Source: Pseudomonas azotoformans (lineage in GTDB: Bacteria > Pseudomonadota > Gammaproteobacteria > Pseudomonadales > Pseudomonadaceae). Taken from it: a stretch of DNA of 64,000 nucleotides. Below, piece by piece: positions 23,255 to 30,354 of the stretch. Position numbers and translations under genes: made by a program. Below the pieces are notes generated by a model. The model worked only from the letters and a program-made list of their open reading frames with translations. It had not been told where the DNA came from and did not search any database. Where the stretch lies: NCBI RefSeq assembly GCF_900103345.1, contig NZ_LT629702.1, positions 5,192,501-5,256,500 of the forward strand. The letters run 5' to 3'. Position 1 is the first letter of the stretch. Each line of letters opens with the position of its first letter.

Positions 23255-23472
23255 GGCTTTTGGATTTCCAGAGAAAAGAATGGGTTAGGCGTCGGGGCTT
23301 GCATGGCAATCGATGGATCGACCCGAGCTGCAGATAAAAAGCGGCAAAAAACGCTGGGCATTAAAGCATTTTTCGACTTGGGGCGTCATTCGCACCTGCT
23401 CAACAAGTCGACCGAATGCATGGCGCCCGGCGGCAATCAGGCGGTATGACAGGCAAAGCTTTAGGGAGTTTT

Positions 23473-24126
23473 ATGGGAAAAGGATTTTTCACGGGAAAAC
23501 TCGACACCCTGCTGGGCGTCGACATCAATGACACGGCAATCCGGCTGGTGGAGCTGGGCCGTTCATCCTCTGGTTACAACATTCGCGGCTACGTCACCCA
23601 GGCATTGCCGGTACGTTCGGTGGTCGACGGCACATTCCTGGATCTCGAAGGTGTGGGGCGCACCTTGCGCAGTGCATTGTCACGGTTGGCGACGTCGGTC
23701 CGTGGCGCTGCCGCTGCGGTGTCCGGGCCTTCGGTGATCACGCGTATGATCGAGATGGAGGCGGGGCTGACTGACGACGAGATGGCCTGGATGATCCAGA
23801 TGGAGGCAGACCAGTACATTCCTTATCCATTGGATGACGTGGCCATCGACTTTCAAGTGCGTGGGCCGGCCGCCCTCGACCCAGGTCGTGTCGAGGTGCT
23901 GCTGGCGGCGTGCCTGAAGGAACATGTCGAGGCTCGGGAGGCGGTTCTGGCGCTGGCCGGGCTGGTGCCGAGGGTGGTCGATGTCGAAGCGTTTGCATTG
24001 GCGCGCGCTTGCAGTCAGGATTTCGCCAGCTTCACGCCGAGCCATCGAGTCGATGGTGCACAATGGGCCGTGGACGCCCAAGGGATGGGAATTGCTTGCG
24101 GGTTGGCCCTGAGGAGTTTCGCTTGA
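23473..24126 (+). CDS. pilM: PilM-like protein with large internal deletion
   Basis: 217 residues from ATG 23473 (AGGGAG upstream), against ~354 in normal PilM. Residues 1-~180 align with the N-terminal half of the actin-like fold: LLGVDINDTAIRLVELGR, IEMEAGLTDDEMAWMIQMEADQYIPYPLDD (split here as two visible blocks), and LLAACLKEHVEAREAVLALAGL. After FALARACSQDF the protein jumps to MGIACGLALRSFA, which is the extreme C-terminus of the family. About 135 residues with the second ATP-binding half are absent, with no frameshift. PilM normally binds ATP and the PilN cytoplasmic tail. Here ATP binding is doubtful, while the PilN-binding part may survive. First gene of the operon. Confidence 0.9.
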   Translation: MGKGFFTGKLDTLLGVDINDTAIRLVELGRSSSGYNIRGYVTQALPVRSVVDGTFLDLEGVGRTLRSALSRLATSVRGAAAAVSGPSVITRMIEMEAGLTDDEMAWMIQMEADQYIPYPLDDVAIDFQVRGPAALDPGRVEVLLAACLKEHVEAREAVLALAGLVPRVVDVEAFALARACSQDFASFTPSHRVDGAQWAVDAQGMGIACGLALRSFA

Positions 24127-24677
24127 AGACACGAATCAACCTTTTGCCTTGGCGCCAGGCGCTGGCGGAGCGGCGACGCAAGTACCTGCTGGCGTGTTTG
24201 CTGGCGTTCGCCTGCGCGGCGCTTGCGGCTGTGTGGCTGGCGGACCAGGTGATCGACCAGGCCATTGATCGGCAAGTGACCCGCAATGACCATCTGGGCA
24301 AGCAAATCACCGGCCTCGATTCGCGCATCAGGACCATCGACGACCTGCAGGAGCAAAGCCAGCAGTTGGCACAGCGCATGAAGGTTGTGCAGGACCTGCA
24401 CGACTCCCGCTCGTCCGGCGCGCAATTGTTGGATCAGTTGGCGCGCGCAGTACCCGATGGTGTGCATCTGCATGAAGTGGTGGCGAAGGGCGATACGATG
24501 AGTATCAGCGGCAGTGCCGAATCCAGCCAGGATATCGCCCAACTGATGCGTCGCCTGGAGGCCGCACAAGGCGCCCATTCCACGCGGTTGCAACAGGTGC
24601 GAACTGAAGGTGCGCGCGGCAACAATGAATTCCAGTTGATGGTGCGACAGGGCGAGCCCTCCGAGGCGCAACCTTGA
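24123..24677 (+). CDS. pilN: Type IV pilus/DNA-uptake inner-membrane protein PilN
   Basis: 184 residues from TTG 24123, overlapping the pilM stop by 4 bases, with GAGGAG seven bases upstream. The N-terminus MKTRINLLPWR carries the conserved INLLPW motif that docks into PilM. One transmembrane helix follows (~21-42), then a coiled coil (~45-95) and a small periplasmic ferredoxin-like domain. PilN pairs with PilO to form the inner-membrane alignment subcomplex. Only slightly shorter than the usual ~198 residues. The long open frame beginning at 23910 is an upstream extension without start signals. Confidence 0.92.
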   Translation: MKTRINLLPWRQALAERRRKYLLACLLAFACAALAAVWLADQVIDQAIDRQVTRNDHLGKQITGLDSRIRTIDDLQEQSQQLAQRMKVVQDLHDSRSSGAQLLDQLARAVPDGVHLHEVVAKGDTMSISGSAESSQDIAQLMRRLEAAQGAHSTRLQQVRTEGARGNNEFQLMVRQGEPSEAQP

Positions 24678-25639
24678 GCCCGCTGAGGCTCAATCTTTCT
24701 GCACTCACTCACAACGCTGCAAAATGGCCCCTACCTGGCAAGGCCCTGTTGGGCTGTGCGCTGGCGAGCCTGATATTTGTGGTGGGTGACCTTGTGTGCC
24801 TGAGCCCGTCGCGGCAACGGTTGCATCAGGTTGAGGTGCGGGAAGTCGCCCTGCAACAGCAAGTCGCTGAAAAGACGGCCCTGGCTGCCACCCTTGAGGC
24901 GCGCGTGCAGCAGCTCCAATTAATGCAGGCGAAAGCGGATGAGCTTTTCCGGGCGTTGCCGGGGAAATCCGAAATGCCCGGCTTGCTCGAAGACATCGCG
25001 CACTTGGCAGTGGCCAATGGTCTGGTGCTCGAGAGTGTCACGCCATCGGACGAACAGTCTCAGCCGTACTATTACGAGCAGCCGGTACAGGTCGGCGTGG
25101 CAGGGGCTTACCACGACCTGGCGACGTTCCTGAGTAGCTTGGGTGGCCTGGCGCGAATTGCGACGGTGCATGATGTTGTCCTGCGACGGGATGGCAAGCT
25201 GCTGCGCCTTGATCTACTGGTCAAGAGCTATTGGCTGCCGGGTGGTGGGGGAGGTGGTCAGGCCCGCCAACGACAATCCTTTGTCTACGAGGCTTCCGGG
25301 CTGCGCGACCCTTTTCAGCGGCTTGCCGTTCAGGTCGATCATCTACCTGGGCGGCAAGCTCGCGCGCCGGATCTCGCCCGGCCACGCGCAGCCTTGGAAA
25401 ACCTTGCGCTGGACCAGTTCGAAATGGTCGGCACGTTGTCCCGTGGGTCGCAGTTCTTCGCCTTGCTGCGTGCGGCCTCCACGGTGCATCGCCTGGCGGT
25501 CGGTGACTACCTGGGGCCGGACCATGGCCGGGTCACGGCTATCCATGAGCGTTACATAGAGCTGGTCGAGCTGTTTCCCGATGGTCAGGGAGCATGGCTG
25601 GAACGCCCACGAACCCTGGTGTTAAACGTCAACTCATAA
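24674..25639 (+). CDS. PilO-PilP fusion protein
   Basis: 321 residues from TTG 24674 (GAGG eight bases upstream), overlapping pilN by 4. Residues 1-187 are PilO-like: membrane helix 24-43, coiled coil ~45-92, periplasmic ferredoxin-like fold to SYWLPG. A Gly run (190-195) and QARQRQ link to residues 202-321, which are PilP: SFVYEASGLRDPFQ, then the HR domain FEMVGTLSRGSQFFALL, VHRLAVGDYLG, VELFPDG and AWLERPRTL. The PilP signal peptide, lipobox and start codon are absent, so PilP here is tethered through the PilO helix instead of a lipid. In P. aeruginosa PilO (~207) and PilP (~174) are separate; their sum exceeds this protein by ~60 residues. Confidence 0.9.
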   Translation: MSPLRLNLSALTHNAAKWPLPGKALLGCALASLIFVVGDLVCLSPSRQRLHQVEVREVALQQQVAEKTALAATLEARVQQLQLMQAKADELFRALPGKSEMPGLLEDIAHLAVANGLVLESVTPSDEQSQPYYYEQPVQVGVAGAYHDLATFLSSLGGLARIATVHDVVLRRDGKLLRLDLLVKSYWLPGGGGGGQARQRQSFVYEASGLRDPFQRLAVQVDHLPGRQARAPDLARPRAALENLALDQFEMVGTLSRGSQFFALLRAASTVHRLAVGDYLGPDHGRVTAIHERYIELVELFPDGQGAWLERPRTLVLNVNS

Positions 25640-25652
25640 CGGAATCGAACCC

Positions 25653-27035
25653 ATGAAAAGGATTTTCTCGTCCTTCGGTGTGGCGCTATGGATAGCGTTC
25701 ACGGCGCCGATGGCTGTTGCTGTGCCCAATCGTGTAGACCTGATCCAGTTGCCACCGCCTGGCAGCGCCACGTCGAGCGCTTACACCGGCGACAAGCTGA
25801 ACCTCAACTTCCAGAGCATCGAGTTGCGCACGGCGTTGCAGCAAATCGCCGACGTCGCGGGCCTCAATCTGGTAGCCAGCGACGACGTGCAGGGCTCGAT
25901 TACCCTGCGCCTCAAGGATGTGCCCTGGGATCAGGCGTTGGACCTGGTGCTGCAAGCCAAGGGCCTGGATAAGCGGGTAAAGGCCGGTGTATTGCTGGTC
26001 GCGCCGGCCGAGGAGTTGGCCGCGCGTGAGCTGTTGACCCTGGAATCGCGCAAGCAAATGGCCGAACTGGCGCCGTTGCGCAGGGAGCTGTTGCAGGTCA
26101 ATTACGCCAAGGCGGCGGACCTGGCCAAGTTGTTTCAGTCAGTCACGGGCCTTGAGGGCGTCACCGATGAGCGTGGCTCGGTGGCGGTGGATGATCGCAC
26201 CAACAACATCATCGCCTATCAGACTGGCGAGCGGCTGGAGGAGCTGCGCAGGATCGTGGCGCAACTGGATGTGCCGGTGCGTCAGGTCATGATCGAGGCG
26301 CGGATTGTCGAGGCCAATGTCGATTACGACAAAAGCCTGGGCGCACGCTGGGGTGGGCGGCTCACTCGCGGCAACTGGGGCGCCGGTGGCATTCCGAAAC
26401 CTCTGGCTGAGGGCGCGGAGCCGCCGGAAAACCCACCCAGTTCACCATTTGTGGACTTGGGGTCACTCGCCGGTTCATCGGGCCTGGGCATCGCCTTTAT
26501 CACCGACAACCTGCTGCTGGACCTGGAGCTCACCGCCATGGAGAAAACCGGTAACGGCGAAATCGTCTCGCAACCCAAGGTGGTCACTTCCGACAAGGAA
26601 ACCGCACGCATCCTCAAAGGCACCGAGATTCCCTACCAGGAATCCAGCTCCAGCGGCGCCACCTCGGTGTCGTTCAAGGAAGCCTCGCTGTCGCTGGAGG
26701 TCACCCCGCAAATCACCCCTGATGACCGCGTGATCATGGAGGTGAAAGTCACCAAGGATGAACCCGACTACCTGAACAAACTCAACGATGTGCCGCCGAT
26801 CAAGAAAAACGAGGTCAACGCCAAGGTGCTGGTCAAGGATGGCGAGACCATCGTCATTGGCGGGGTTTTCTCCAATACCCAAAGCAAAGTGGTAGATAAA
26901 GTGCCATTTTTGGGCGATGTGCCGTATCTTGGCCGCCTTTTCCGGTGCGATGTGCTGGCGGAGAAAAAATCCGAGCTGCTGGTATTCCTGACTCCGCGTA
27001 TTATGAATAACCAGGCGATTGCTGTGAGTCGTTGA
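25653..27035 (+). CDS. pilQ: PilQ-type secretin, short form without AMIN domains
   Basis: 460 residues, about 250 fewer than P. aeruginosa PilQ (~714). After the signal peptide (ends AVAVP) it goes almost directly to the STN/N0 domain ([22 protein letters not shown] is its start) and the N1/KH-like domain ([16 protein letters not shown]). The secretin core follows, with [58 protein letters not shown] and [14 protein letters not shown]. The N-terminal peptidoglycan-binding AMIN repeats are missing. It would form the outer-membrane pore. Size and layout resemble HofQ/ComE DNA-uptake secretins of enterics and Pasteurellaceae more than PilQ of twitching pseudomonads. Confidence 0.92.
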
Positions 27036-28794: not shown

Positions 28795-30354
28795 ATGACT
28801 AGTTTGCATGCCGACGAGGCGTTCCTCGGCCATTACCAGTTAAGCCACGACCCCTTTGCTCCACGGGTGCCTGGTTTCAAATTTTTCCCGGCCCAGCGCA
28901 AGCCAGTGCTCGGCCAACTGCACCACCTCGCGCGCTACAGCCAGTTGCTGCTGGTCGTGACCGGCCCGTTGGGCAGCGGCAAGACCCTGCTGCGCCAGGC
29001 CCTGGTGGCCAGCACCAACAAGCAGTCGGTCCAGAGTGTGGTGGTATCCGCCCGTGGTGCCGGTGATGCGGCGGGCGTGTTGCGCCAGGTCGCCCAGGCA
29101 CTGGACGTGGCCACGGCTGAGCCGAACGCGATCCTCAAGCAGGTGGTACAGCTGGGCCTGACCGGCCAGGAAGTCTACCTGCTGGTGGATGATGCCGAGC
29201 AGCTCGACGAATCCGCCCTCGAAGCGCTGCTGGCGCTGGCGGCGGGCACGCCGGAAGGCCGTCCGCATGTATTCCTGTTCGGTGAGTCGTCGCTGATCGC
29301 CGACCTGGAGCAGATCAGCGGTGATCAGGAGCTGTTCCACGTCATCGAGCTGCAGCCGTACGAAGAGGAAGAAACCCGCGAATACCTGGCTCAACGCCTG
29401 GAAGGTGCAGGGGCGGGTATCGAACTTTTCTCCGCTCAACAGATCTCTGATATTCACGAAAGCTCCGACGGCTGGCCTGGCACCATCAACCAGGTTGCCC
29501 GCGATGCCATGATCGAAGCCATGATTGCCAGCCGCACCGCGGTCAAGCGTCCAAAGATGGGGTTCACTATGCCTAAGAAACACGTATTGGCTATTTCCGC
29601 CGTTGTTGTGGTCGCTGTTGCCGCCGCCTGGTTGATTCCGGGCCGCAGCAAGGCGCCGACCACCGCCGGTGCGCCAACCGAGCAGGCGCAATTGCCACTG
29701 GGCAAACCCACGCCAAATGTTGAGTTCGCCAATTCCGGCCAACCGACCAACCTGCCGATGGTCGGCCAGCCTGTCATGCGTGGCCCGCTCGCCGAAGAAG
29801 CCGGTGGCATTTCCGAAGGTGACGACGGCGTGCCGGTTGAAGGTTCCAGCGCAACACCGCCGACCGTCACGACCACTGCACCACCTGCTGGCGTGCCAGC
29901 CGGTCAGCCAGCGGCAAAACCAACGCCGGCACCGACTGTTGCAACCGCCAAGCCTGCGCCCGTGACCAAGCCGGTCGCGCCTGCGCCAGCTGCCAAGCCA
30001 GCACCAGCAGCGGCCGCCAAGCCTGCTGAAAAACCGGCTGCCACCGTGGCCAAGGCCGGTGCTGCGGGTAGCGGTTGGTATGGCAGCCAGCCTTCGGGCA
30101 ACTTCGTGGTGCAGATCCTCGGCACCAGCTCTGAAGCCAATGCCCAGGCGTTCGTCAAAGAGCAGGGCGGCGAGTACCGTTATTTCAAGAAAGTGCTCAA
30201 CGGCAAGCCTCTCTACGTGATCACCTATGGCAGTTTCTCCAGCCGTGCAGCGGCTGATTCTGCCATCAAGGCCTTGCCAGCGAAGGTTCAGGCTGGTAAA
30301 CCTTGGCCTCGCACTGTTGCCAGCGTTCAACAAGAACTCGCAACAACTCGCTGA
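28795..30354 (+). CDS. DamX-like AAA-ATPase/SPOR septal protein
   Basis: 519 residues. N-terminal cytoplasmic ExeA-like AAA domain (~1-250) with Walker A VTGPLGSGKTLLRQAL and Walker B VYLLVDDAEQLDE. One transmembrane helix (~264-282, LAISAVVVVAVAAAWLIPG). A long Ala/Pro/Lys-rich periplasmic linker (~290-425, repeated KPAP-type units). C-terminal SPOR domain (~435-515: FVVQILGTSSEANAQAFV, LYVITYGSF). In E. coli damX is also directly after aroB, and DamX localises to the division septum through its SPOR domain. E. coli DamX lacks an obvious ATPase with this length, so function is inferred. Confidence 0.85.
   Translation: MTSLHADEAFLGHYQLSHDPFAPRVPGFKFFPAQRKPVLGQLHHLARYSQLLLVVTGPLGSGKTLLRQALVASTNKQSVQSVVVSARGAGDAAGVLRQVAQALDVATAEPNAILKQVVQLGLTGQEVYLLVDDAEQLDESALEALLALAAGTPEGRPHVFLFGESSLIADLEQISGDQELFHVIELQPYEEEETREYLAQRLEGAGAGIELFSAQQISDIHESSDGWPGTINQVARDAMIEAMIASRTAVKRPKMGFTMPKKHVLAISAVVVVAVAAAWLIPGRSKAPTTAGAPTEQAQLPLGKPTPNVEFANSGQPTNLPMVGQPVMRGPLAEEAGGISEGDDGVPVEGSSATPPTVTTTAPPAGVPAGQPAAKPTPAPTVATAKPAPVTKPVAPAPAAKPAPAAAAKPAEKPAATVAKAGAAGSGWYGSQPSGNFVVQILGTSSEANAQAFVKEQGGEYRYFKKVLNGKPLYVITYGSFSSRAAADSAIKALPAKVQAGKPWPRTVASVQQELATTR

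Follow-up and report, generated by a model that had tools for sequence, protein, structure and literature searches.

Why should PilO and PilP, two parts of the type IV pilus alignment complex, be encoded as a single chain in this locus, and does that chain still serve a working machine? The window, that is, the whole 64-kb stretch of DNA analysed here, carries a pilM-pilN-pilOP-pilQ locus between ponA, which lies upstream on the opposite strand, and aroK/aroB (ponA, aroK and aroB were named from their frames). The features are collected in Table 1. The initial annotation had proposed that PilO and PilP are joined in one polypeptide from which the start codon and lipobox of PilP are missing, that the stoichiometry of the two is thereby fixed, and that this amounts to a new architecture.

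Table 1. Features of the pil locus, in window coordinates.
Feature	Position	Strand	Remarks
pilM, shortened	23416..24126	+	PilM profile 1-168 plus the last ~15 residues; true start maybe 23446 or 23473
pilN	24123..24677	+	184 aa + stop; TTG start overlapping pilM stop; INLLPWR motif kept; start read from sequence (the ORF list has a longer frame from 23910)
pilOP, fused PilO-PilP	24674..25639	+	321 aa from 321 codons, one intact frame in the ORF list; TTG start overlapping pilN stop (TTGA)
Probable membrane helix of pilOP, approx. residues 22-42	24737..24799	+	hydrophobic run and model helix 20-93
PilO domain of pilOP, residues 50-187	24821..25234	+	Pfam, structure matches
Linker of pilOP, residues 188-226	25235..25351	+	variable; low model confidence from about 190
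Gly run of pilOP linker, residues 190-195	25241-25258	+	
PilP domain of pilOP, residues 198-317	25265..25624	+	Pfam; without signal peptide or lipobox
pilQ, short secretin	25653..27035	+	N0/STN, Secretin_N, Secretin

The fused chain and what PilP lost

Both halves of pilOP match their families well above threshold and in the same frame: PilO (PF04350) with 108.6 bits (cut-off 22; E-value 3.9e-31) and PilP (PF04351), over profile positions 24-146, with 110.7 bits (cut-off 25.6; 7.6e-32). The closest solved relatives by sequence are PilO (2RJZ) and PilP (2LC4, 2Y4X) of the P. aeruginosa type. The genome from which the window comes is a single contig of 6.73 Mb, and the only PilP match in it is the fused gene. 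Since PilO and PilP form one chain, their covalent ratio is 1:1, and the proposal of a fixed stoichiometry follows directly.

An AlphaFold model of pilOP, built on a 32-row alignment, has a mean pLDDT of 79.8 and a pTM of 0.42. It consists of a long N-terminal helix (residues 20-93), a PilO core (101-187) and a PilP beta domain (227-317), joined by a linker (about 190-226) of low confidence, the end of which overlaps the Pfam match to PilP. In Foldseek searches, the PilO half matched P. aeruginosa PilO (5UVR) with a TMt of 0.80, and the PilP half matched P. aeruginosa PilP (2Y4X) with a TMt of 0.92-0.93. The traits that define PilO, namely an N-terminal membrane helix, a coiled coil and a ferredoxin-like core, are all found in the model and its match to 5UVR. 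Of those that define PilP, the C-terminal beta domain is there, as seen from Pfam and 2Y4X, and the signal peptide and lipobox Cys are not; much of the N-terminal segment that docks on PilN/PilO is also missing when the alignment is read by eye. The predicted PilO helix is thus left as the only visible anchor of the chain.

How much of PilP has gone can be estimated from relatives in which the genes are still separate. Under a strict pattern, a lipobox is recognised in 40 of 42 separate PilPs, the misses being L136 (LNGC) and L096 (broken frame). Within the separate loci of reduced type (defined below), the spacing from the lipobox Cys to R[DSN]PF is 43-44 residues in 10 of 12; for L052 it comes out as 51 because a motif further upstream was picked up, and there is no value for L096. 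In the fluorescens-like fusions (n = 26), the end of PilO, marked by a KTY-type motif, lies 22-33 residues before RDPF (a spacing of 7 for L068 is a motif artefact). By eye, the last ~16 residues of this junction are still PilP-like, and ~28 of the 44 residues between Cys and RDPF are absent from the PilP of the window. The spacing therefore implies that PilO has lost a short tail, and PilP its leader, its Cys and some 28 mature N-terminal residues. No Cys occurs within 45 residues before the DPF-type motif in any of the 54 fused loci scanned, which include the window and comprise the fused loci other than L093, L095, L098, L111 and L120. In P. aeruginosa, the unstructured N-terminal region of PilP (~18-76) binds the PilN/PilO dimer and the C-terminal domain binds PilQ (PMC5805733, in part). 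The simplest reading is that a covalent link to PilO would have left PilP with no need of its lipid or its docking peptide.

Could a separate PilP still be made from an internal start? In the window there is no in-frame ATG, GTG or TTG in the 45 codons before RDPF, so this candidate was rejected there. At least one in-frame start does occur in those codons in 52 of the 53 other fused loci (L084 has none), and no export signal was found behind the internal starts of the fused loci scanned over this interval. The Gly run reported in the linker is present, but the reading of it as a designed hinge was rejected, since aligned relatives have no run of six. At the other end of the gene, the NTGA overlap with the pilN stop codon is found in all 54 fused loci inspected.

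A slimmed machine around the fusion

The locus belongs to the type IVa systems, having pilMNOPQ genes with a PilQ secretin. PilQ scores 500.3 bits against TIGR02515 (cut-off 284.35); Pfam gives no match to an AMIN domain in it, and this domain is present in the full-type locus L136. PilM scores 182.1 bits against TIGR01175 (cut-off 133) and lacks ~130 internal residues, although its C-terminal end, ACGLALRSF, is retained. The aligned PilMs of fluorescens-like L084 and L059 and of the separate-gene sisters L071 and L054 share this gap. A model of the shortened PilM (mean pLDDT 67.9) matched P. aeruginosa PilM structures over 175-189 columns. By our reading, the missing part would be lobe 2, the inner lobes of the actin-like fold; the PilN binding site on PilM is the IA-IC cleft (PMC7613929, in part). 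A protein with an AAA-ATPase and a SPOR domain (DamX-like C-terminus) is encoded downstream of aroB, at 28795-30354 of the window.

Elsewhere in the genome of the window, nothing scores above the TIGR02538 cut-off for canonical PilB, and PilY1 has no match. A TfpB-like ATPase (L168:4533-6332) reaches 830.8 bits, short of the cut-off of 850 for TfpB (NF053534). A PilA-like pilin, a PilC-like protein and a probable PilD lie together at L167:4338-7019, with no pilB adjacent; the PilC-like protein is below every curated cut-off compared, and the probable PilD, which has no NCBIfam match at 1e-5, was named from its sequence. PilT is above its family cut-off, four further pilin-like N-termini lie in one cluster at 5660837-5662917 (minor-pilin genes), and ComEC, sought in this genome only, is present.

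The lack of canonical PilB and PilY1 extends to other genomes of the genus. Genomes were divided by their best PilP match into a reduced set (71 genomes, at most 122 bits) and a full set (127 genomes, at least 146 bits). Canonical PilB above the cut-off was found in 0 of 71 reduced versus 115 of 127 full genomes, and PilY1 in 0 of 71 versus 117 of 127, counts that are uncorrected for relatedness, so that genomes are not independent events. Two of the 12 full-type genomes below the PilB cut-off have partial hits (G033, G176). Eight genomes (G020, G060, G072, G087, G127, G136, G150 and G171) have a full-type PilP, no canonical PilB above the cut-off and no PilY1 match, and possibly represent an early stage of the same reduction. 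Six further loci (L052, L053, L058, L073, L079 and L087), all outside the fused fluorescens-like clade, combine short PilQ frames (417-489 aa) with a separate, lipobox-bearing PilP, which suggests that PilQ was shortened more than once.

Distribution and origins of the fusion

PilP was matched in 198 of 199 genomes of the same genus, and PilO and PilP share one open frame in 59 of these 198 (26 fluorescens-like, window included, and 33 putida-like), a count that leaves out second PilP matches in G017 and G065. The loci examined besides the window were those of the other 70 reduced genomes and of 30 full genomes. All 59 fusions fall among the 71 reduced genomes, the other 12 having separate genes; the state of L093, L095, L098, L111 and L120 was settled by Pfam. 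All 33 putida-like loci in the sample are fused. The 30 full-type loci examined are all separate, and the PilP frames of the other 97 are no longer than 255 aa from stop to stop, which is too short for both domains.

The fusion is also widespread in named records. The best 80 of 543 confirmed places gave 79 loci, covering the fluorescens-like set and its neighbours, and in 49 of these 79 the fused frame is open, always under a Pseudomonas title; they include P. extremorientalis (93% identical), P. marginalis, P. cedrina, P. simiae, P. poae, P. trivialis, P. rhodesiae, P. orientalis, P. yamanorum and others. The other 30 loci among these best places include P. gessardii, P. spelaei, P. koreensis, P. 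putida ASAD, one Pseudomonadales bin and three gammaproteobacterial bins, as well as the draft genome of P. lactucae MAFF 301380 (L258), in which pilOP is fused and its frame is broken inside the PilP half. Since P. putida ASAD (L274) has separate genes, a species name alone is no guide to the fusion. Homologues of a putida-like fusion (L094) contain both domains in 90 of 92 cases, the exceptions being P0168 (207 aa) and P0188 (193 aa), and have names that include P. putida, P. plecoglossicida, P. capeferrum, P. fulva and P. entomophila, which bears out the putida-like label. One putida-like fusion (P0128) is entered under Aeromonas caviae KAM380, a record that may be mislabelled or mixed. In a sample of 369 gammaproteobacterial genomes, 287 of them matched, no row of the shortened listing other than that of the window covers both halves; fusions may nevertheless exist beyond that listing or among the frames longer than 300 aa in other genera.

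Did the fusion arise once or several times? In a tree of the neighbouring protein PonA (99 rows, 57 of them fused; L098 and L104 lacked the marker), loci with separate genes come between the two fused clades, and parsimony requires three changes. Holding all 57 fused rows as one clade lowers the log-likelihood by 86.8 and is rejected (p-AU 0.000355), although the p-value is weakened because the fused group was named after the tree had been seen. A single ancient fusion common to both clades was rejected on this test, and the window accordingly does not share common descent of the fusion with the putida-like genes. Formally, the genes could also have fused once and later come apart again, regaining their lipoboxes.

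Within the fluorescens-like clade the history is less clear-cut. The PonA tree places six separate fluorescens-like sisters inside the fused set with modest support. A tree of five proteins (PonA, PilM, PilN, PilQ and AroK; 44 rows) gathers the 26 fluorescens-like fusions into one group with weak support (88/51), leaving outside it L096 and then L054, L067, L071, L078 and L080. A single fusion in this clade is favoured, but weakly, and the disagreement of the two trees over the separate sisters makes it possible that there was more than one. The last five sisters have short PilM and short PilQ frames together with a separate, lipobox-bearing PilP. Such a PilP, as read from the sister sequences, is the presumptive prior state, and because these sisters are short in PilM and PilQ yet unfused, shortening preceded fusion on the five-protein tree. 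The sixth, L096 (the same place as L263, P. fluorescens ISL-62), has separate pilO and pilP, with its PilP match spread over two frames.

Might the fused gene have been passed from one clade to the other? The PilO and PilP halves of the window match the six separate sisters with medians of 145 and 155 bits, and the putida-like fusions with medians of only 28 bits for PilO (29 of 33 matched) and 40 bits for PilP (32 of 33). The halves are thus closer to the separate sisters, which argues against transfer. The fusion apparently has more than one origin, in pilus machines that lack other parts as well.

Function or decay?

Most probably, the product of pilOP is a functional PilO-PilP chain, anchored in the membrane, that forms part of a slimmed type IVa pilus machine. 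The inner membrane would hold the chain by the N-terminal helix of PilO, with both domains in the periplasm, and the PilP domain, on a linker of 20-35 residues, would bind PilQ at its N0 region in the way that PilP does in other systems. The tether to PilO would stand in for the lipid anchor and for the disordered peptide that docks PilP on the PilN/PilO dimer. With less certainty, a machine that has no canonical PilB or PilY1 and a shortened PilM may no longer power twitching; it could make pili that are few or short, DNA uptake being their likeliest use, with the TfpB-like ATPase as driver and PilT for retraction. Any dependence of pili, twitching or DNA uptake on the pilOP locus is likewise a prediction of lower certainty.

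The same losses could also mean that the fusion is a step in decay, the pilus system being on its way out and the fused gene a remnant with little function. This would fit the lack of any canonical PilB above the cut-off and of any PilY1 match throughout the reduced set, the shortening of PilM and PilQ, and the broken frames of two relatives (L096 and L258), which indicate that some lineages may be losing the system. Selection bears on the matter from both sides. Pairwise dN/dS (Nei-Gojobori, own script; pairs hand-picked among near relatives and so non-random) is 0.17-0.41 for the fused gene across all 13 fluorescens-like pairs and 0.21-0.32 across all 5 putida-like ones. Split by part, which was feasible for 17 of the 18 fused pairs, it is 0.11-0.50 for PilO, the highest value coming from one pair, and 0.12-0.37 for PilP; in the linker (12-16 codons) it exceeds 1 in 3 of 13 fluorescens-like pairs. 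Four pairs of full-type loci give much lower values (PilO 0.006-0.056, PilP 0-0.08). As judged from these ratios, selection on both fused domains is purifying but relaxed relative to the full-type loci. The relaxation, however, is also found in six pairs of separate sisters (PilO 0.16-0.25, PilP 0.09-0.24), so the fusion is not its cause. Against decay stand the values below 1 for both domains, the low dN/dS of PilQ (0.05-0.22 in the 13 fluorescens-like fused pairs), the retention of the NTGA overlap in all the fused loci inspected for it, and frames that are open in 59 genomes of two clades and in the majority of the named loci drawn from the best 80 places. Decay of this kind is unlikely.

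It is also conceivable, though quite improbable, that the working chain is cut in the periplasm, leaving the machine with a separate PilO and a PilP that carries no lipid. A linker that varies in sequence and length and is modelled with low confidence would suit such cleavage, but no conserved cleavage motif could be made out by eye in the linker alignment, and a freed PilP would have no anchor and would be missing much of its docking segment. A joining of two genes by assembly or sequencing error can be dismissed, given the one-contig genome and the recurrence of the fusion in 26 fluorescens-like genomes, in the wider survey and in many named records of other strains.

Taken together, the two lineages may have independently rebuilt the alignment complex to a minimal form in which PilP is tied to PilO without lipid or docking peptide, the fluorescens lineage, with no PilB and a cut PilM, then being a natural minimal pilus, probably for DNA uptake; this combined reading is tentative, its chances being a little under even. 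If it is true, such a pilus shows which canonical parts serve only force and twitching. A conserved fusion that has apparently evolved independently is in any case a natural experiment on the alignment complex: a natural PilO-PilP chain fixes the ratio at 1:1, where arguments about the stoichiometry of the machine had relied on indirect evidence. The chain also suggests that PilP can do without its lipid anchor and docking peptide once it is tied to PilO. Its occurrence in two clades, always without canonical PilB or PilY1 in the sample, offers a testable case of the slimming of a twitching pilus.

Comparison with known systems

The fusion as such was already known. A PilO-PilP fusion in P. 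putida (UniProt Q88CU9) was described in 2011, together with the same inference of a 1:1 stoichiometry (PMC3169554, in part), and some homologues are labelled 'PilOP' or 'type 4 pili biogenesis protein PilO/PilP [Pseudomonas putida]' in databases. The initial annotation was right that the fusion is genuine and that its PilP half has no lipobox, and mistaken in calling the architecture new. What the present analysis adds is the slimmed machine, the loss of much of the PilP docking segment and the presence of fused genes in two separate clades. No description of a fluorescens-group fusion, of the lost docking segment or of a strict link to the loss of PilB and PilY1 was found in the open-access literature, nor were the separate fluorescens-like clade and its pre-fusion sisters found in print.

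The P. putida fusion resembles that of the window in having PilO and PilP in one open frame. The putida-like fusions of our sample differ in more than descent: their PilP profile matches begin at 59-73 in 32 of 33 (G044 at 30), and the 12 rows aligned are 23-32% identical to the window and have a C-terminal tail in 8 cases. The type IV pilus clusters of P. putida were given in 2010 as pilMNPQ, pilACD and pilEXW/fimT (PMC3056050, in part), a list consistent with pilO being fused and with pilB and pilY1 being absent. P. fluorescens A506 has no pilB and a tfpB homologue (PMC8213720, 2021, in part), a pattern shared by the genome of the window; the available portion of that paper does not mention a PilO-PilP fusion.

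In P. aeruginosa, PilO (2RJZ, 5UVR) and PilP (2LC4, 2Y4X) have the same fold as the respective halves of pilOP and clear sequence similarity to them, but each is a protein of its own, and PilP, a lipoprotein, docks by its N-terminal segment (PMC5805733, in part). A parallel is offered by GspC of type II secretion, which is a membrane protein, not a lipoprotein, and contains a PilP-like HR domain (PMC3724824 and PMC3169554, both in part); the GspC-GspD complex 3OSS was matched by Foldseek at an E-value of 0.19 only. The anchor is where the two differ, since the helix of GspC is its own, whereas that of pilOP comes from PilO.
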